In this document: piece by piece, positions 3,361 to 11,356 of the stretch
How positions within the stretch are numbered: the stretch's first letter is position 1
Layout of the letters: the number at the start of each line of letters is the position of its first letter
Virus record (IMG/VR): IMGVR_UViG_3300042569_000097
Location: 1 to 24,820 of that record
Source: a virus
DNA: 24,820 bases
Reading direction: 5' to 3' (one strand)
Translations under genes and position numbers: made by a program
The notes under the pieces: generated by a model
Databases searched by the model: none
The model's input: the letters and a program-made list of their open reading frames with translations, nothing else
Told to the model about the DNA's origin: nothing

Positions 3361-4323
3361 ATGGCAAAAGTAGCATACCCCGGCGGTAGTTCATCTATCG
3401 TTAACAACACCAATGCAGCAACCTTCATTCCAGAAATTTGGAGTGACGAGGTTATCGCTGCGTACAAGAAAAACCTAGTATTGGCAAACCTTGTTCGCAA
3501 AATGTCTTTCAAAGGCAAAAAAGGCGACACGCTGCACATTCCTAAGCCAACTCGTGGTACTGCAACCCTCAAGGCTGCTAACACCGCTGTAACGATTCAG
3601 GCTGACGTTGAGACAGAAGTACAAGTTCTGATTAACCGTCATTTCGAGTACTCACGTTTCATCGAGGACATCACCGAAGTTCAGGCTTTGGCATCGCTCC
3701 GTTCTTTCTACACGGAAGACGCTGGTTACGCTTTGGCTAAACAAGTAGATGACGACCTCATTAACTTGGGTAAGACTTTCGGTAACGGTACAACCACTTG
3801 GGTTCATAGCAATAGCTTTTACATCGATGCTTCTACTGGTTTAACAGCTTACGCTGAAGACCAAGTGATTGACACCGACGTATTTACTGACGCTGGTTTC
3901 CGTGCGCTTATCCAGCGTATGGACGACGCTGATGTACCAATGGATGGTCGTAAGTTTGCGATTCCTCCTTCACTGCGTAACGCAATCATGGGTATTGACC
4001 GTTATAACTCTAGCGACTTCGTTGATGGTCGTGGCGTAAACAATGGTCAAATCGGTAAGTTGTATGGCATCGACATCTATGTGTCGAGCAATATGCCTGT
4101 TATCGAAACTAACGCATTGAACACCGCAGTTGGTAACAACTTTGACATCAAAGCTGCACTCTTGTTCCATACCGACACAATGGTATTGGCAGAGCAGTTA
4201 GGTGTTCGTTCACAGACTCAGTACAAACAAGACTACTTGTCTACACTTTACACTGCTGACACATTGTTCGGCACTAAAGTTGTACGTCCAGAAGCTGGCT
4301 TCGTATTAGCTGTTAACGGCTAA
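3361..4323 (+). CDS. Major capsid protein (HK97 fold expected)
   Basis: This 320-residue protein forms the icosahedral shell. The sequence begins MAKVAYPGG, then FIPEIWSDEVIAAYKKNLVL and a Lys/Gly-rich turn (KMSFKGKKGDTLHIPKP), as in the N-arm and E-loop of HK97-fold coat proteins of podoviruses. The later sections are the mixed alpha/beta P- and A-domain type (GKLYGIDIYVSSNMP; LFHTDTMVLAEQLGV). The length is normal for the family. It follows the scaffold by 31 bases with an AAAGGA ribosome site. Codons look optimised for high expression, with frequent GGT/CGT/AAC use. A terminator-like hairpin lies directly downstream, as after the T7 capsid gene. Confidence 0.9.
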   Translation: MAKVAYPGGSSSIVNNTNAATFIPEIWSDEVIAAYKKNLVLANLVRKMSFKGKKGDTLHIPKPTRGTATLKAANTAVTIQADVETEVQVLINRHFEYSRFIEDITEVQALASLRSFYTEDAGYALAKQVDDDLINLGKTFGNGTTTWVHSNSFYIDASTGLTAYAEDQVIDTDVFTDAGFRALIQRMDDADVPMDGRKFAIPPSLRNAIMGIDRYNSSDFVDGRGVNNGQIGKLYGIDIYVSSNMPVIETNALNTAVGNNFDIKAALLFHTDTMVLAEQLGVRSQTQYKQDYLSTLYTADTLFGTKVVRPEAGFVLAVNG

Positions 4324-4329
4324 GTAGTA

Positions 4330-4367
4330 ACTCCTCCCCTGTCCTACCTTACTTTGGATGGGGGAGT
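4330..4367 (+). terminator. Terminator or attenuator hairpin after capsid gene
   Basis: ACTCC(T)CCC pairs with GGGGGAGT across a loop of about 20 bases, starting 6 bases after the capsid stop. The sequence that follows, ATTCTTTA, is only moderately U-rich, so termination is likely partial. T7 has its T-phi terminator at the equivalent place after gene 10. Partial termination here would give more capsid than fibre transcript. Confidence 0.6.
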
Positions 4368-4417
4368 ATTCTTTAAGTGTATTCAAACGAGTGCCTTTAA
4401 AGAAAACAAGGAGATTT

Positions 4418-4927
4418 ATGAAACGTTGTTGGAAATGTTCCACCTTTAAATTAACAACTGAATTTGTTAAAAACAAATCTAAAAAGGATGGGCTTTCCTC
4501 TGAGTGTAAAGAATGTAAAAGAACTCAAGATAAAGAATACGGGTTTAAAAATAAACAAGTAATTCAAGCACGAGCATCTGCTTGGTATTATGATAATTAC
4601 GAACACGCTAGAAAAATACGTAATGAATATAGTAGACAATGGATAGTAAATAATCCAGATAAAAACACAGCAAAGTCTAATTTATATAGAGCAAGAAAGT
4701 TAAACGCTTCTCCAAGCTGGTTAACGAATGAACAGAAATCTCAAATAGATTCTATTTATTGGTTAGCTCGTTTACAACAAGAATTAAATGACGAGCAATA
4801 TCACGTGGACCATATAGTTCCTTTAAAAGGAAAAACTGTTTGTGGATTACACGTTCCTTGGAATCTGCAGATACTTTCTGCTAAAAAGAACATGACTAAA
4901 GGGAATAGATTAAATGCCTATATTTAG
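4418..4927 (+). CDS. HNH endonuclease with N-terminal zinc finger
   Basis: The 169-residue protein has two CxxC pairs at the N-terminus (CWKC ... CKEC), then a Lys/Arg/Tyr-rich helical linker. The C-terminal HNH core is HVDHIVPL, followed by GLHVPWNLQILS and NMTKGNR. It is a homing-type nuclease common in phages. The ATG at 4418 is preferred because AAGGAG precedes it by 4 bases. An in-frame ATG at 4358 lies inside the post-capsid hairpin and has no ribosome site. The gene is visibly more AT-rich than capsid and fibre genes, a sign of separate origin. Its last 14 bases overlap the start of the long fibre gene, so it sits exactly at a gene junction. Confidence 0.85.
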   Translation: MKRCWKCSTFKLTTEFVKNKSKKDGLSSECKECKRTQDKEYGFKNKQVIQARASAWYYDNYEHARKIRNEYSRQWIVNNPDKNTAKSNLYRARKLNASPSWLTNEQKSQIDSIYWLARLQQELNDEQYHVDHIVPLKGKTVCGLHVPWNLQILSAKKNMTKGNRLNAYI

Positions 4928-7562
4928 AGGAGCAGGTGGTGCTGGTGATGCCACTAATGACGCTACAGTAACCGCTGTTCAAGCTGCTGCTACATCTGCA
5001 GCAACCTCAGCCACTAACGCTGCTAACTCAGCCACCGCTGCAGCTAACTCAGCCAGTGGTGCTGCTACATCTGCAACCAACGCTTCCAATTCAGCTACGA
5101 CTGCTGCAGGTCAAGCCACGACTGCTGCAGGACACGCTTCCTCTGCATCTACATTCGCTACTAATTCTTCGTTGTCTGCAGACGATTCTGCTGACTCTGC
5201 TACAGAAGCCGAAGGCTATGCGTCAGAAGCCTTTGACTATAAAGTTGAAGCATCTGTTTCCGCTGGTGCTGCTTCTGATTCTGAAGATGCTGCTGCTGCC
5301 TCTGCTGCCTTAGCAGAAGGTGCTGTAGATGATGCTCTTGCTCTCTACGGTGACGCTGCTGCATTAGACGCTGCTGTTACTGCTGCTCAGTTAGCAGAAA
5401 CCAATGCAGAGACTGCAGAGACTAATGCTGAAACTGCTGCAACTACAGCTACTAATGCTGCCTCTACCGCTACAACACAAGCAACCAACGCTGCTGCTTC
5501 TGCCTCTGCTGCTAATGCTGATGCTACTGCTGCTTCGATTGATGCTAATGAAGCTCAAGCTGCTGCAATCGCTGCACAGTCTGCAGTTAATAACGCTGAA
5601 GCTATCTACGGCTCTCTTGAGGATATTCAACAAGCAGAAGCAAACTCAGAAGCTAACCGTGATGCTGCTGCTGCTAGTGCTACCTCAGCGAGTAACTCAG
5701 CAAGCACTGCCACCACACAAGCTGGTATTGCTACTACACAGGCTACTTCTGCCTCTGCTAGTGCTGCTGCTGCATCCGCTGTAGCTCTCGGTAACGAGCC
5801 AGTTCGCCACTCAGTTCGCCCAAGCCTCTTGCTAGACTTTGCCAACACCAAGACCCTAGACCCTCGCATCACTTTCACAAGAGCATCTACTGGTACTTTC
5901 TATGATGGTAAGACTGTAGCTAAGGCTGAGGAGAATTTGTTGTTGCAAACAGTAGATATGGGGGGTGTTTTCTATACCTCCTCCGCAACTGGTACTGCTT
6001 CTGTTCCGACTAAAACCTCTAACTATGGCGTAGCCCCAGATGGAACAACAACTGCTGGTCGCTATCAATTAAATTTAAATGGTGGAACAAGTGTTAATGA
6101 TATTGCTCGAGTTCTACAAGGATATAACTTTGGTGTAGCAGTAACTGCAACTTATTCTGTATATATTAAATCTACAGATGGTACAAGCACTTACGCAGCA
6201 CAAATTATTTCTTCAGATGCGTTAGGACAAGCAATAACAATCACAGGAGCTTGGACTCGATTTACTGTTACAGCAACTTCATTAACTTCTTCAGTCTCCT
6301 ACGGTATTCGTCTGCGTGGGGGACAAACTCCTACCAACTCTGATACTGCTGATATTCTTGTCTGGGGCGCACAGTTAGAACAACGCTCATCCGTAACAGC
6401 CTACACAGCCACCACCACAGCTCCAATCACAAACTACATCCCAGCTCTGCAAAGTGCTGCTAGTGGAGTAGCTCGCTTTGAGCATAATCCTACTACTGGT
6501 GAGAGCCTTGGATTAGAGATTGAGGAGCAGAGGACTAATCTAGTGGTTCGTAGCCAAGAATTCCAAACCACATGGGCAACGACAAACGCCAGCATTACAA
6601 CAGACACAATAATTACTCCTGACGGTACGCTGACGGGTGATAAGTTAGTAGAGGACACAACAAACGGTCAGCATCGTGTTGGCCAAGCTGTAACTGTTTT
6701 GGCTTCAACTACATATACGGCATCGTTTTACGCCAAAGCTGGCGAAAGAACATTAGTACAATGGTTTGATAACGCAGCAGCGGGAAATACGGCTGTAATC
6801 TTCAATTTGTCTGCTGGAACAATAGCATCGGAATACTCGGCGGGTGTTAGCACGATTAGCGCAGTAGGCAACGGCTGGTACAGATGCTCTGTTCGCACAA
6901 CAACTGGGGCAGCGCAAACCACTTTAACGCCAGTATTACGCCTTGTAAGCACAGGAACCACTACTTCATACGCTGGCGATGGCTACTCAGGTCTATATCT
7001 CTGGGGCGCACAACTAGAAGCTGGCTCATTCGCTACTAGCTATATTCCTACGGTAGCATCTCAGGTAACTAGGTCGGCAGACTCTGCTGTTATGACTGGT
7101 ACTAATTTTAGTAGCTGGTATAGGACTGATGAGGGTACTGTTTATAGTGAAGCAAGTACATTAGTTGCAGCAGGAAATAGTAGAACAGCCTGGGCTTTGG
7201 GCTTTACCTCAAGCTCAAATGATTCAACCAGTCTAACCAGTCCTTATACAGGAACAGGTAGGTATAGACTTCTAGGATTTGTAGGCTCTACGGCAAATAT
7301 AGACTTGTACCCAGCAACAACATTTACTAGCGGCTCAATAAATAAAGCTGGATTTGCTTATGCTGCTAATGACTTTGCGCTGTCTGTTAATTCTGGAACT
7401 GTTACAACTGATACATCTGGATACATGAGCCCAGCGATTGATAGATTTTCTATTGGTACTCTGACAACAGGTTCTAACCCACTTAGTGGAACTATCAAGA
7501 AACTTGCCTACTATCCAAAACGCTTGACCAACGCAGAACTTCAAGGCTTAACTACAGTTTAA
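4914..7562 (+). CDS. Long tail fibre A (Ala-rich stalk plus jelly-roll tip domains)
   Basis: This 882-residue fibre starts MPIFRGAGGAGDATNDATVT, an N-terminus seen in podovirus fibres. Residues about 15-290 are a low-complexity Ala/Ser/Thr/Asn stalk with repeated ATNAANSA-like units, probably a trimeric coiled coil. From residue 304 comes a module shared with fibre B. It has SLLLDFANTK and PRITFTRAST, then a first beta-sandwich (about 340-500, ending VWGAQLEQRSSVTAY). A linker follows (GESLGLEIEEQRTNL), then a second beta-sandwich (about 545-710, ending LWGAQLEAGSFATSYIPTV). Last is a LamG-like end finishing GTIKKLAYYPKRLTNAELQ. These are carbohydrate-binding-type folds, so receptor recognition is inferred. 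No depolymerase active site is evident. The start lies within the HNH gene end, with AAAGGGAA upstream. Confidence 0.8.
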   Translation: MPIFRGAGGAGDATNDATVTAVQAAATSAATSATNAANSATAAANSASGAATSATNASNSATTAAGQATTAAGHASSASTFATNSSLSADDSADSATEAEGYASEAFDYKVEASVSAGAASDSEDAAAASAALAEGAVDDALALYGDAAALDAAVTAAQLAETNAETAETNAETAATTATNAASTATTQATNAAASASAANADATAASIDANEAQAAAIAAQSAVNNAEAIYGSLEDIQQAEANSEANRDAAAASATSASNSASTATTQAGIATTQATSASASAAAASAVALGNEPVRHSVRPSLLLDFANTKTLDPRITFTRASTGTFYDGKTVAKAEENLLLQTVDMGGVFYTSSATGTASVPTKTSNYGVAPDGTTTAGRYQLNLNGGTSVNDIARVLQGYNFGVAVTATYSVYIKSTDGTSTYAAQIISSDALGQAITITGAWTRFTVTATSLTSSVSYGIRLRGGQTPTNSDTADILVWGAQLEQRSSVTAYTATTTAPITNYIPALQSAASGVARFEHNPTTGESLGLEIEEQRTNLVVRSQEFQTTWATTNASITTDTIITPDGTLTGDKLVEDTTNGQHRVGQAVTVLASTTYTASFYAKAGERTLVQWFDNAAAGNTAVIFNLSAGTIASEYSAGVSTISAVGNGWYRCSVRTTTGAAQTTLTPVLRLVSTGTTTSYAGDGYSGLYLWGAQLEAGSFATSYIPTVASQVTRSADSAVMTGTNFSSWYRTDEGTVYSEASTLVAAGNSRTAWALGFTSSSNDSTSLTSPYTGTGRYRLLGFVGSTANIDLYPATTFTSGSINKAGFAYAANDFALSVNSGTVTTDTSGYMSPAIDRFSIGTLTTGSNPLSGTIKKLAYYPKRLTNAELQGLTTV
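5823..7562 (+). repeat. Fibre tip module, copy 1 (in fibre A)
   Basis: This segment encodes fibre A residues 304-882, paralogous to fibre B residues 60-643 (8557-10311). Short stretches are identical at DNA level, for example a 17-base match CAGAGGACTAATCTAGT (6528-6544 and 9301-9317) and ACTATCAAGAAACT (7491-7504 and 10243-10256). Other parts are diverged, especially the first sandwich and the last 150 residues. Confidence 0.8.
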
Positions 7563-7574
7563 TAAGGAAAACAA

Positions 7575-8075
7575 ATGAAAAAATTAACATTTTCCGATAT
7601 TGAAGCTAAGGCTATTAAAGACAGCATTAGTGGATGTTGGAATTGGTCTGGAAAAATTAATGCAACTGGTTATGGAAAAGTAAAAAAAGGCGAACTTGCA
7701 CACCGAGTTTCTTTAGAGTTATCAGGTGTAGAAGTTATTAAAGGATTAGATGTAATGCATTTATGTCATAACCGAAAATGCGTTAATCCAGCGCATTTAA
7801 AACTAGGAACTAGACAGGAAAATATACAAATGTCTGTGGATGATGGCAGATGGAATAATGAATTGCGTTCAAAAAGAATGAGTGAAGTTCGTAATAGAGA
7901 AACAAAAAATGGAATGATTGTTGGAAGATTCAGAAAGGTTACTGATGAACAAATAAAACATATTCGTGCCTATGGAATTACATCAGATTCTCGTAAAGAA
8001 CTTGCATTACTTTATAACTTAACTACGCAAGCAATACGCTCAATTCAAATTAAGAAGGTATATAAATATGTTTAA
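7575..8075 (+). CDS. HNH homing endonuclease (HNH_3 type) with C-terminal HTH
   Basis: The 166-residue protein has the HNH_3 layout: GCWNWSG and GYGKV, then AHRVSLELSG, then HLCHNRKCVNPAHLKLGTRQ (about residues 62-81), which holds the zinc/catalytic His and Asn residues. The C-terminus (SRKELALLYNLTTQAIRSIQ) is a helix-turn-helix that likely fixes the target site. It is AT-rich compared with neighbours. It follows fibre A by 12 bases with an AAGGA site. Its last 8 bases overlap the next start. It separates the two paralogous fibre genes. Homing activity is inferred from family. Confidence 0.85.
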   Translation: MKKLTFSDIEAKAIKDSISGCWNWSGKINATGYGKVKKGELAHRVSLELSGVEVIKGLDVMHLCHNRKCVNPAHLKLGTRQENIQMSVDDGRWNNELRSKRMSEVRNRETKNGMIVGRFRKVTDEQIKHIRAYGITSDSRKELALLYNLTTQAIRSIQIKKVYKYV

Positions 8076-8376
8076 TGATATGTATTTAAAATTCGCTGAC
8101 CAAGCACAAGCTGATTCAGTTCTTTACACAGTTACCGATGAAGTAACTGATGCTGATGGTGTAGTAGTACAAGAAGCCAGTAGCAAACCTAACTTCGCTA
8201 ACATTGATGTATTAGGCACTCTATATGAAGCTATCCCAGCAGATGCTGAAGAAGGCTATGAGCCAGTAGCTAAAGAGGGATACCATGTCAATGTTCGAGT
8301 AGTTGGCTCTGAAGATGCTTCTGCATTAGTACCATTCTCTGTAGTTCCTACTGTTCCAAAACGGATTTGGGGTTAA
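8068..8376 (+). CDS. Small fibre-associated protein, function unknown
   Basis: This 102-residue acidic protein begins MFNDMYLKFADQAQADSVLY. It has a beta-rich pattern with a repeated-looking acidic loop (TDEVTDADGVVVQEASSKPN) and ends FSVVPTVPKRIWG. No membrane segment or catalytic motif is present. It has an AAGG ribosome site 9 bases before ATG; a second in-frame ATG lies at 8080. Fibre B starts 3 bases after its stop, so the two are almost certainly co-translated. The place next to fibre genes suggests a fibre-assembly helper or small virion subunit; this is inference from position only. Confidence 0.7.
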   Translation: MFNDMYLKFADQAQADSVLYTVTDEVTDADGVVVQEASSKPNFANIDVLGTLYEAIPADAEEGYEPVAKEGYHVNVRVVGSEDASALVPFSVVPTVPKRIWG

Positions 8377-8379
8377 ACT

Positions 8380-10311
8380 ATGCCGTCACTTATTGGCAAC
8401 AAACCAAACCAAGTCCCTTCAAACGGTGACTTAGGTACTTTAGCTTTTCAAGATAGCAATGCTGTCAATATTGTTGGCGGTACTGCTGTTGTTGATAACT
8501 TAACTGCGGACAGTATCAACCTTAGAATTGACCATGACCTCAGTAACATCTCTCCTTCGCTACTCTTAGACTTTGCTAATACCAAAGCATTAGACCCAAG
8601 GATTACCTTTACTAGAGCCAGTACTGCTTCCTTCTATGATGGCAGAACTACAGCCAAAGCTGAGGAGAATTTGATATCATATAGCCAAGAGTTTGATAAT
8701 GCTTACTGGTCTAAGAACGCTTCTACAGTAACAACCAACACTTCTGTAGCTCCTGACGGAACAACAACCGCAGAAACATTAACTGCGTCTGCTGGAACTG
8801 CTCTAGCACCAAGAACATTTCCAACAACTTTAACTGGTATTACAAGCACAGTCCATGCAATTTCTATTTTTGCAAAAGCTGGAACAAATAACTTTTTACA
8901 AATTACCGATGCTACAGTTGGCTTTCATGCCAATTTTGATTTATCTGCTGGTACAGTAGGGACATCTGCATCTTGTACCCCATCTATTGTTTCTGCTGGA
9001 AATGGATGGCATAGATGTATAGTTACTTACACAAGCGGTGGTACGGATATAAGACCGCTATTCGTACTTGTGACAGGTTCTTCCGTAGCAAGACTTGCGA
9101 CATTTAATCCTGTCGGTACTGAAACAATCTTGTTATGGGGCGCACAACAGGAGCAACGCAGCGCAGTATCCGCATACACTCCAACAACTACTGCACCGAT
9201 TACCAATTACATCCCTGCTTTAAGAACAGCACAAGCTGGTCAAGCAAGATTTGACCATGCTCCGCTAACTGGAGAAAGTCTGGGATTGTTGATAGAGGAA
9301 CAGAGGACTAATCTAGTTACCTATTCTGACGATTTAGCAAACGCTGCTTGGTCTAAGGTGGGAGCTAGTGTTACCAGTAATGTTTTAGTTTCTCCTGACG
9401 GGACTTTAACTAGCGACAAGTTAGTTGAAGATACTAGCACAGGCTCACACAGGATTGAACAAAATGGAACTACAACAATTACAAATCCAGTAACATTTTC
9501 TGTTTTTGCTAAAGCTGCTGAACGAAATCAAATTAGCTTACAAATTGTTGATAACGGAACAGGCAGCAACGGCGGTAGTGTTTACTTTAATCTTTCCACA
9601 GGGGTTGCATTTAGTGCTGCTGTAGATGGTTCTGGAGCTGGTGCTTCCGCAACAATAACTGCTGTAGGTAATGGCTGGTATCGATGCTCCTTTACTGTCA
9701 CAACTAACGGCTCTGGAACTGCTGTTAGAGCGAGAACATATTTAAGCACTACTGGAACAACTAGGGCATACACAGGCGATGGCTACTCAGGAATCTACAT
9801 CTGGGGAGCGCAGTTAGAAGCAGGAGCTTTTGCTACCTCATACATCCCAACAGTAGCCAGCCAAGTTACTCGTAGTACTGATGCTGCCAGTATGACTGGG
9901 TTAAACTTCTCTAGCTGGTACAGAGCTGATGAGGGTACTTTGTATGCTGAATCTTTTTCAGAATCTGCTAGAACAGTAGCTGCAATCGGACAAGGTTCTT
10001 TTGTAACAAATATTATTTTTAATTTTGCAAACCTTGTGCGGTTTGCTGGAGCAGCCCCTAGCCTAACTTTAGGAACATCCGTAAATGGAAATATAAAATT
10101 AGCTGCTGCGTTAAAGCCAAATGATTTTGCTGTTTCAGCAAACGGAACAGCCGTAGTTACAAGTGCTTTGAATCTAACTATTCAAAGTTTTGCCAATCAA
10201 TTACAAATTGGCTTTTCACCTAGTTCAAGCACTTTAAACGGCACTATCAAGAAACTAGCCTACTACCCAGTTCGCCTACCCAATGCTGAGTTACAGGAGA
10301 TGACATCGTGA
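8380..10311 (+). CDS. Tail fibre B (short anchor plus jelly-roll tip domains)
   Basis: This 643-residue fibre has a short anchor (residues 4-36: LIGNKPNQVP then AFQDSNAVNIVGGTA) instead of fibre A's Ala-rich stalk. From residue 60 the same tip module as fibre A follows: SPSLLLDFANTK, PRITFTRAST, a first beta-sandwich ending LLWGAQQEQRSAVSAY, and a linker with GESLGLLIEEQRTNL. A second sandwich ends IWGAQLEAGAFATSYIPTV, and the final domain ends GTIKKLAYYPVRLPNAELQ. The anchor is shared with fibre C. It is probably a second receptor-binding fibre, with sugar binding inferred from fold type. Its TGA overlaps the GTG start of fibre C by 3 bases (10309-10310 plus the preceding G). Confidence 0.8.
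   Translation: MPSLIGNKPNQVPSNGDLGTLAFQDSNAVNIVGGTAVVDNLTADSINLRIDHDLSNISPSLLLDFANTKALDPRITFTRASTASFYDGRTTAKAEENLISYSQEFDNAYWSKNASTVTTNTSVAPDGTTTAETLTASAGTALAPRTFPTTLTGITSTVHAISIFAKAGTNNFLQITDATVGFHANFDLSAGTVGTSASCTPSIVSAGNGWHRCIVTYTSGGTDIRPLFVLVTGSSVARLATFNPVGTETILLWGAQQEQRSAVSAYTPTTTAPITNYIPALRTAQAGQARFDHAPLTGESLGLLIEEQRTNLVTYSDDLANAAWSKVGASVTSNVLVSPDGTLTSDKLVEDTSTGSHRIEQNGTTTITNPVTFSVFAKAAERNQISLQIVDNGTGSNGGSVYFNLSTGVAFSAAVDGSGAGASATITAVGNGWYRCSFTVTTNGSGTAVRARTYLSTTGTTRAYTGDGYSGIYIWGAQLEAGAFATSYIPTVASQVTRSTDAASMTGLNFSSWYRADEGTLYAESFSESARTVAAIGQGSFVTNIIFNFANLVRFAGAAPSLTLGTSVNGNIKLAAALKPNDFAVSANGTAVVTSALNLTIQSFANQLQIGFSPSSSTLNGTIKKLAYYPVRLPNAELQEMTS
8557..10311 (+). repeat. Fibre tip module, copy 2 (in fibre B)
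   Basis: This segment encodes fibre B residues 60-643, the paralogue of fibre A residues 304-882. The two modules have nearly equal length (579 and 584 residues) and the same domain order. This indicates a duplication followed by divergence, or import of a related fibre. Confidence 0.8.
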
Positions 10312-10790
10312 GTATAAAGAAACTGATTGGTTCAGATAAAAACCAAGTACCTCTGAATCGGGATTTAGGTTCTCTTGCGTATCAAGACAGTACCGCAGTA
10401 AATATTGCTGGTGGTACTGCATCTAATGTACAGAACTTAACCAACTTGTTTGTAGCCCAGCCAACTCCTTCAGCAATTAATGCCTCTGCTACTTTAACCA
10501 TTGCTCAGTTACTAACTAGAATCATTACAACCAACAGCGCAACAGCAGTAGCGTTTACTTTGCCAACAGGTACATTAACTGATGCTGGTATCTTGAGTGG
10601 ACAGCTATTAGTTAATCAATCGTTTGATTGGACTATTATCAATACAGGTTCAGCAGTTGGTATTATTACAGTTTCAGGTGGTACAGGCAATACTTTGGTT
10701 GGTTCAGGGATGCTTGCTATTACTACCTCAGCAACTTTCAGAACTACAAAGACTGCTGCTAATACATTCACCACTTATAGAATTGCATAA
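10308..10790 (+). CDS. Short fibre C sharing fibre B's anchor
   Basis: This 160-residue protein starts at a GTG overlapping the fibre B stop. Residues 6-38 (LIGSDKNQVP then AYQDSTAVNIAGGTA) match fibre B residues 4-36 at 24 of 33 positions. The rest is a small beta domain (FTLPTGTLTDAGILSGQLLV; TVSGGTGNTLVGSGML; ending TYRIA), a pattern common in phage decoration and fibre proteins. It lacks the large tip module. It may be a short fibre, a cap or an adaptor docking at the same site as fibre B. Confidence 0.7.
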   Translation: MSIKKLIGSDKNQVPLNRDLGSLAYQDSTAVNIAGGTASNVQNLTNLFVAQPTPSAINASATLTIAQLLTRIITTNSATAVAFTLPTGTLTDAGILSGQLLVNQSFDWTIINTGSAVGIITVSGGTGNTLVGSGMLAITTSATFRTTKTAANTFTTYRIA

Positions 10791-11005: not shown

Positions 11006-11356
11006 ATGAGACCACTATCAGTTGGTAGCAACTTAGTAGCAAACACCAAGACGACCTTGTTCACTGTACCCACAAGGCAGATAGCTAAGTGGACTTTATT
11101 GTGGGCTGTTAACAACACCGCCTCTGCTAAGAACTTTACAGCATGGTGGTATGACAAGAGTGAGAATGTTGAAGTTAGGGTTATCCTAGACTATCCTTTA
11201 GCTACTAAGACCTTCCTGAAGTTTGATGGTGGTGCTTATGTGGCTTTAGAAGAAGGTGATGAAATTAGAGTACAAGCAGAGACAGGAGCAGATTGTTCTG
11301 TTCTTTGTACATTTGAGTTAGAAGCAACTTCCGCAGTTCAATACAACCAATATTAA
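11006..11356 (+). CDS. Beta-rich phage protein, probable virion component
   Basis: This 116-residue protein has alternating hydrophobic/polar strands throughout (TTLFTVPTRQIAKWTLLWAV; VRVILDYPLA; DEIRVQAETGADCSVLCTFE) and no helix-rich or membrane section. It looks like a compact beta sandwich. The start at 11006 is 3 bases after the preceding stop. Proteins of this type occur near fibre genes in environmental podophages, and a head-decoration or fibre-linked role is plausible. I do not recognise a named family. Confidence 0.65.
   Translation: MRPLSVGSNLVANTKTTLFTVPTRQIAKWTLLWAVNNTASAKNFTAWWYDKSENVEVRVILDYPLATKTFLKFDGGAYVALEEGDEIRVQAETGADCSVLCTFELEATSAVQYNQY

Follow-up and report, generated by a model that had tools for sequence, protein, structure and literature searches.

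Fibres A and B of this virus carry paralogous tips, each composed of three serial, replaceable cassettes. We consider it likely that single cassettes are exchanged by recombination within the linkers that separate them, with breakpoints at six joints, that fibre B arose later by a fusion involving the p160 gene, and that an HNH gene lying between the two fibres is a separate insertion. The window, i.e. the whole stretch of DNA analysed here, is a 24.8-kb virus record (IMGVR_UViG_3300042569_000097; 24,820 nt) and represents a fragment.

Two paralogous tips on different anchors

The genes of the window are ordered portal, scaffold, capsid (3361-4323), endonuclease (4358-4927, + strand, adjoining the capsid gene), fibre A (4914-7562, +), HNH, p102, fibre B (8380-10311, +), p160 (10308-10790, +) and then tail genes; portal, scaffold and capsid were named from position and homology. 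Another endonuclease gene lies on the minus strand beside the portal and capsid genes (1252-1809). The nearest cultured relatives of the capsid protein are only ~30% identical, so we name no host. For comparison with invertible tail-fibre cassettes, fibres A and B have the same orientation in this fragmentary record.

The original prediction, that two related tips sharing domain order and several short exact DNA matches are attached to different anchors, was borne out. BLASTP aligns residues 304-882 of A with residues 60-643 of B (280/621 identical, 45%; E=4e-140), and the domain order is shared over the full tip, end to end. The N-terminal part of A comprises 303 residues, an anchor and an Ala-rich stalk (4914-5822, +). 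In B the anchor has 59 residues (8380-8556, +), of which the first ~35 resemble the N-terminus of p160.

Both tips follow the layout N-linker, D1, linker 1, D2, linker 2, D3, C-tail, with all parts on the + strand. In tip A, the N-linker (5823-5939) ends in the seam box GCTGAGGAGAATTTG (5925-5939) and leads into D1 (5940-6362), which has few homologues within our set. Linker 1 (6363-6544) extends from box TGGGGCGCACA (6363-6373) to CAGAGGACTAATCTAGT (6528-6544) and is followed by D2 (6545-6974), a domain of the GTA_spike_fiber type. Linker 2 (6975-7139), from GGCGATGGCTACTCAGG (6975-6991) to CTGATGAGGGTACT (7126-7139), precedes the LamG-like D3 (7140-7490) and a C-tail (7491-7562) that opens with ACTATCAAGAAACT (7491-7504). 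Tip B consists of an N-linker (8557-8673; box 8659-8673), the jelly roll D1 (8674-9135), linker 1 (9136-9317; boxes 9136-9146 and 9301-9317), a D2 of the GTA_spike_fiber type (9318-9774), linker 2 (9775-9939; boxes 9775-9791 and 9926-9939), a LamG-like D3 (9940-10242) and a C-tail (10243-10311; box 10243-10256). The tips are probably built from three serial beta-sandwich cassettes, CBM-like jelly rolls followed by a LamG-like domain, set between conserved linkers.

Domain-by-domain alignment of A and B revealed patchy identity, ~70-84% at the amino acid level in the linkers and 20-41% in the domains. Exact DNA matches in the aligned register exceed those obtained by shuffling codons within each gene (3000 shuffles): there are eight runs of at least 11 nt (4.1 expected, P=0.04) and five of at least 14 nt (1.2 expected, P=0.005). 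The longest run, 17 nt, is unremarkable on its own (15.0 ± 3.0 expected, P=0.31). All five runs of at least 14 nt (GCTGAGGAGAATTTG, CAGAGGACTAATCTAGT, GGCGATGGCTACTCAGG, CTGATGAGGGTACT and ACTATCAAGAAACT) lie within five residues of a domain joint, where 0.28 were expected, an outcome reached in none of the 3000 shuffles (P<1/3000). The sixth joint is marked by an 11-nt match, TGGGGCGCACA. The seam boxes are these stretches of 11-17 nt, common to A and B, at the six joints.

Mosaicism of the tips

One near-identical strain, L004, was found, which shares 98-100% identity with the window in the p84, p160 and tail-tubular proteins. In fibre A of L004, D3 is identical and D2 is replaced; in fibre B, the anchor and D1 are retained and both D2 and D3 are replaced. 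DNA identity drops at the joints from 93-100% to ~50% and returns equally sharply. No donor of the L004 cassettes was present in our set, in which the best match reached about 52% amino acid identity. The two genomes also differ in the p116 gene, which shows a 42-base length difference (window about 11054-11113, L004 about 4187), and in an endonuclease VII gene that precedes the tail-tubular gene in L004 (5027-5443) and has no counterpart there in the window.

The L004 comparison is a single pair, and the general case for exchange is based on 104 full tips, aligned from loci fetched with the two tips of the window, most of them on metagenomic contigs. In this alignment the three linkers and the C-tail are conserved and D1, D2 and D3 are hypervariable. 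In an all-against-all BLASTN comparison, 139 pairs share segments that are at least 82% identical, and the ends of these segments mostly coincide with linker edges. Four-fold-site identity in the linkers exceeds 0.65 for 64 pairs out of 5356; of these, 54 have no related domain, eight share one or two domains and two share all three. This measure sorts the blocks according to age: tip A of the window compared with L090, L099, L091 and L087 illustrates the pattern, with four-fold-site identities of 0.63-0.91 in the linkers and 0.23-0.34 in D1 and D2.

As the 64 pairs were chosen for high linker identity, the reverse cases matter too. Five pairs (L007/L143, L008/L020, L090/L099, L136/L151 and L015/L017) keep one or two cassettes at 82-100% amino acid identity beside replaced ones; in all of these except L008/L020 the shared domains are ~90-100% identical and their neighbours 26-47%. 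L109 is a three-way mosaic, in which an L006-like D1 is joined to an L110-like D2; the short L110 contig has no flanking ORFs in common with L006 or L109. Changepoints estimated from the mosaics fall at B residues 102, 254, 313.5, 466, 524 and 625, their inter-quartile ranges spanning 1-15 residues. L004 and other pairs show the hallmark of mosaic receptor-binding proteins (RBPs), in which near-identical and unrelated segments adjoin in related phages. Variation by a diversity-generating retroelement, which would leave adenine-derived changes at fixed codons, was not observed; whole domains differ and lengths change. On these sequence comparisons, cassettes are exchanged between strains. Phages of a shared aquatic pool would swap single cassettes by recombination within linkers, with breakpoints that come to lie at six sharply defined joints, each bearing a short DNA box.

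The Nonlabens phages P12024S (L528) and P12024L (L529), which infect one host, have tip proteins whose first halves are identical; they differ mostly in a repeat-like region towards the C-terminus, which is another form of variation within the family. A 425-kb contig (CALRBF010000001.1: L331, L334, L340 and L376) in a metagenome-assembled genome of the Parcubacteria group carries at least four tip-like matches, and a second contig, CALRBF010000006.1, carries a further one (L325).

DNA conservation at the joints

We quantified codon identity in excess of that expected from each tip's own codon usage. Across 3365 otherwise unrelated pairs the excess falls from 0.097 ± 0.018 (up to 3 residues from a joint) to 0.083 (4-8 residues), 0.053 (9-15) and 0.010 (16-25); at greater distances it is 0.024. 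In this first set the excess is near zero at many mid-linker residues whose protein conservation is just as high; a universal DNA constraint on whole linkers was rejected on this ground and on that of a median linker four-fold-site identity of 0.36 over all pairs. Because related pairs of the first collection served to place the joints, only a second set does not depend on how they were chosen. The 20-nt pattern GARGARCAGAGGACNAAYCT has at least 119 matches in viral sequence; it yielded 73 new loci, of which 71 carry tips. In the second viral set, with the selected joint omitted, the codon excess is 0.154 ± 0.034 within 3 residues of a joint vs 0.002 beyond 25; residues 486-499 of linker 2 also show an excess. 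Among 74 tips from bacterial genomes the excess at joints is weak (0.031 vs 0.005, P=0.05).

A possible, though tentative, reading is that the seam boxes are functional recombination elements, kept alike across otherwise unrelated phages to allow short-homology exchange of single domains between genomes and possibly between fibre slots, so that phages would draw on a shared cassette pool with a DNA-level standard. Short-homology recombination during co-infection would perform the swap, and the boxes would persist because they permit it. The literature searched, on the RITFTRAS motif, on glycine-rich motifs of gp37 and on homing in the vicinity of tail fibres, contained no report of such a system. 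The boxes could instead reflect codon choice for co-translational folding or pausing, given that they are located at domain boundaries and use unusual arginine codons (AGG in 54 of 91). We regard this explanation as improbable, as tips from bacterial genomes, which have the same protein boundaries, show a weak effect and the viral pool a strong one. It bears on the boxes only, and cassette exchange stands regardless.

Relationship of the two fibres and the HNH gene

A different source of the exact matches would be gene conversion between A and B within one genome, which would keep the linkers alike as the domains diverge and make B a reservoir for A, with the HNH gene promoting the exchange. 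The five matches of at least 14 nt are compatible with such a process, and L010, a different genome and the only clear case among the multi-tip genomes, has a within-genome patch in linker 1, where its two tandem tips reach a four-fold-site identity of 0.77. In the window, however, all three linkers are saturated, with a four-fold-site identity between A and B of 0.31-0.37, and codons at shared residues are identical at a frequency of 0.383, where codon usage alone predicts 0.388. Codon identity at expectation indicates that synonymous sites are saturated and that no recent conversion took place. Neither the linkers nor codon identity thus show the synonymous homogenisation expected of concerted evolution, and within-genome conversion was rejected as a candidate; over long A/B tracts it is largely refuted, and overall we hold this explanation to be very improbable. 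No A cassette was seen in a B slot, and slot-to-slot exchange was not observed. Of the original interpretation, exchange of domains by recombination finds support between strains, but exchange between A and B in this genome does not.

The HNH gene (7575-8075, +) encodes a 166-aa protein with an HNH_3 domain (E=8.6e-8, above the cut-off) and is inserted between fibre A and p102. It is present in the window and absent from L004, where the flanks are near-identical. The suggestion that it promotes exchange does not agree with this comparison: L004 lacks the gene yet differs in three cassettes, and the surroundings of the insertion site (6.99-9.31 kb) are the least diverged stretch between the two genomes. 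A role of the gene as driver of exchange is not supported and, by its presence/absence pattern, it is a separate, dispensable insertion of the homing type. Homing-type endonuclease genes lie just 3' of ~5 of 136 tips surveyed, the window included. They also adjoin other structural genes, at 1252-1809 and 4358-4927 in the window and in L158, L159 and L245, so that a tip-specific role is unsupported. Genes of this type (HNH_3, NUMOD or HNH) immediately follow tip genes at L068:4222, L129:2994, L096:6057 and L132:6318, all on the + strand.

Among the backbone relatives, L087, L099 and L090 each encode only one tip, with p102 and p160 downstream of it. In backbone relatives the anchor class of fibre A fills the position behind the capsid gene, and in L168, L245, L161 and L162 the fibre found there is a different one with an Ala-rich anchor of the same type. 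Fibre A probably occupies the ancestral fibre slot. The anchor of B is 74% identical in DNA to the p160 N-terminus of the window over 81 nt and has nearly the same residues as p160 of L087 and L090. Judged by this similarity, fibre B was probably added later, by fusion of a tip with a copy of the p160 N-terminus. A comparable arrangement exists in L152, where a tip on a similar, p160-like anchor directly precedes a p160-like gene. Three tip genes are present in one phage fragment in L150/L152 (L152 3900-10112). The locus suggests a route to a second tip, fusion with the anchor of a neighbouring gene.

The small gene p102 (8068-8376, +; phrog_18574) is parted from fibre A by the HNH gene. p102-like genes follow 61 of 100 tips surveyed, including those of L087, L099, L006 and L109, and p102 may be an assembly partner of the tips.

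Assembly and selection as sources of mosaicism

Most loci are metagenomic and their linkers are alike in DNA, so assemblers could have formed chimaeras at shared linkers, in which case the mosaics would be artefacts. Three observations make this highly improbable. First, at the left joint of B-D3, the window and L004 share only short exact runs with mismatches nearby, and runs that short fall below usual assembler k-mers. Second, the linkers of exchanged pairs usually differ by several percent. Third, named isolate genomes show the same pattern. The cyanophage isolates S-CAM4 and ACG-2014j, with two tandem tip genes, keep the N-linker in both genes (DNA identity in 45-nt windows is 0.87-1.00 across the first 45 residues and reaches 0.69-0.89 at residue 61) and the C-tail in the first (0.91-1.00), but their interiors are mostly at 0.3-0.5. 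An assembly artefact alone is thus unlikely to explain the mosaics. The isolate pair RcapMu/RcWaterboi has tips that are similar throughout and was uninformative. Least probable of all is that fast point mutation and indels under diversifying selection changed the domains and purifying selection held the linkers, with no recombination: the linkers are indeed conserved as protein across the family, but the same pairs combine unsaturated linkers with domains that are unalignable at synonymous sites, the four pairs described above place near-identical domains next to diverged ones, and no intermediates of graded divergence were seen among the tips.

Tip folds and likely ligands

The region from linker 1 through D2 to linker 2 matches the RcGTA head spike fibre Rcc01080 in profile searches (E=3e-65), and its profile also matches baseplate proteins of the E217 and Pa193 types. 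Against NF048003 (GTA_spike_fiber; curated cut-off 36 bits), tip A scores 199 bits and tip B 288 bits; no Pfam family reached its cut-off in either tip. Predicted models of B (pLDDT 91.3) and A (pLDDT 86.6) match these phage proteins as well as CBM22, CBM40 and laminin-G folds; their TM-scores over the whole chain are low, which is to be expected when a query has several domains.

RcGTA attaches to the Rhodobacter capsule by means of its head fibres (PMC7296036, PMC10218006), and Rcc01080 binds capsule (PMC10218006). Homology and fold matches to this capsule-binding fibre make glycan binding by A and B likely. Based on sequence and predicted models, the tips are very probably sugar-binding receptor-recognition modules. 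It is plausible, by homology to the RcGTA fibre, that the two tips bind two surface glycans or capsule types and so serve dual receptors.

Discussion

T4-type gp37 adhesins have conserved short glycine-rich motifs between variable segments, and these motifs are proposed exchange sites. The tips described here would differ from gp37 in fold and motif. Their D2-type domain is shared, by profile and structure, with Pseudomonas phage E217 gp45 and the Pa193/Pb1-like proteins, but these are myovirus baseplate components. It also resembles Rcc01080 (NF048003; PDB 6tb9), for which capsule polysaccharide binding has been proposed and partly tested (PMC7296036, PMC10218006). Rcc01080, with 325 residues, is a spike fibre of the capsid and is anchored there through an N-terminal Ile/Leu-Gly peptide. 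Unlike Rcc01080, A and B have the extra cassettes D1 and D3 and are encoded among tail-type genes, and the Ile/Leu-Gly peptide described in PMC7296036 is absent from their N-termini. The antireceptor of Streptococcus thermophilus phages, with its VR2, has variable regions that are sometimes parted by conserved repeats and are the main proposed determinant of host range (PMC5601072). Those separators are collagen-like repeats, whereas three cassettes are set here between non-repetitive, folded linkers.

In the domain mosaicism known from RBPs, too, related phages have recently exchanged domains that are non-homologous or diverged (PMC10684548). The mosaics described there mostly combine an N-terminal anchor with a swapped C-terminus, and earlier descriptions of mosaic RBPs are mainly of such anchor-plus-tip swaps, whereas here the unit of exchange is one internal domain of three in series. 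The joints are resolved to within a few residues, and it is there that DNA conservation, in the form of the boxes, is concentrated. Block-by-block exchange suggests a way in which these phages alter their host recognition. Should the boxes matter for recombination, the evolution of host recognition could be tested and in part predicted, by cataloguing cassettes, recognising joints in the sequence and relating exchange rates to box identity.
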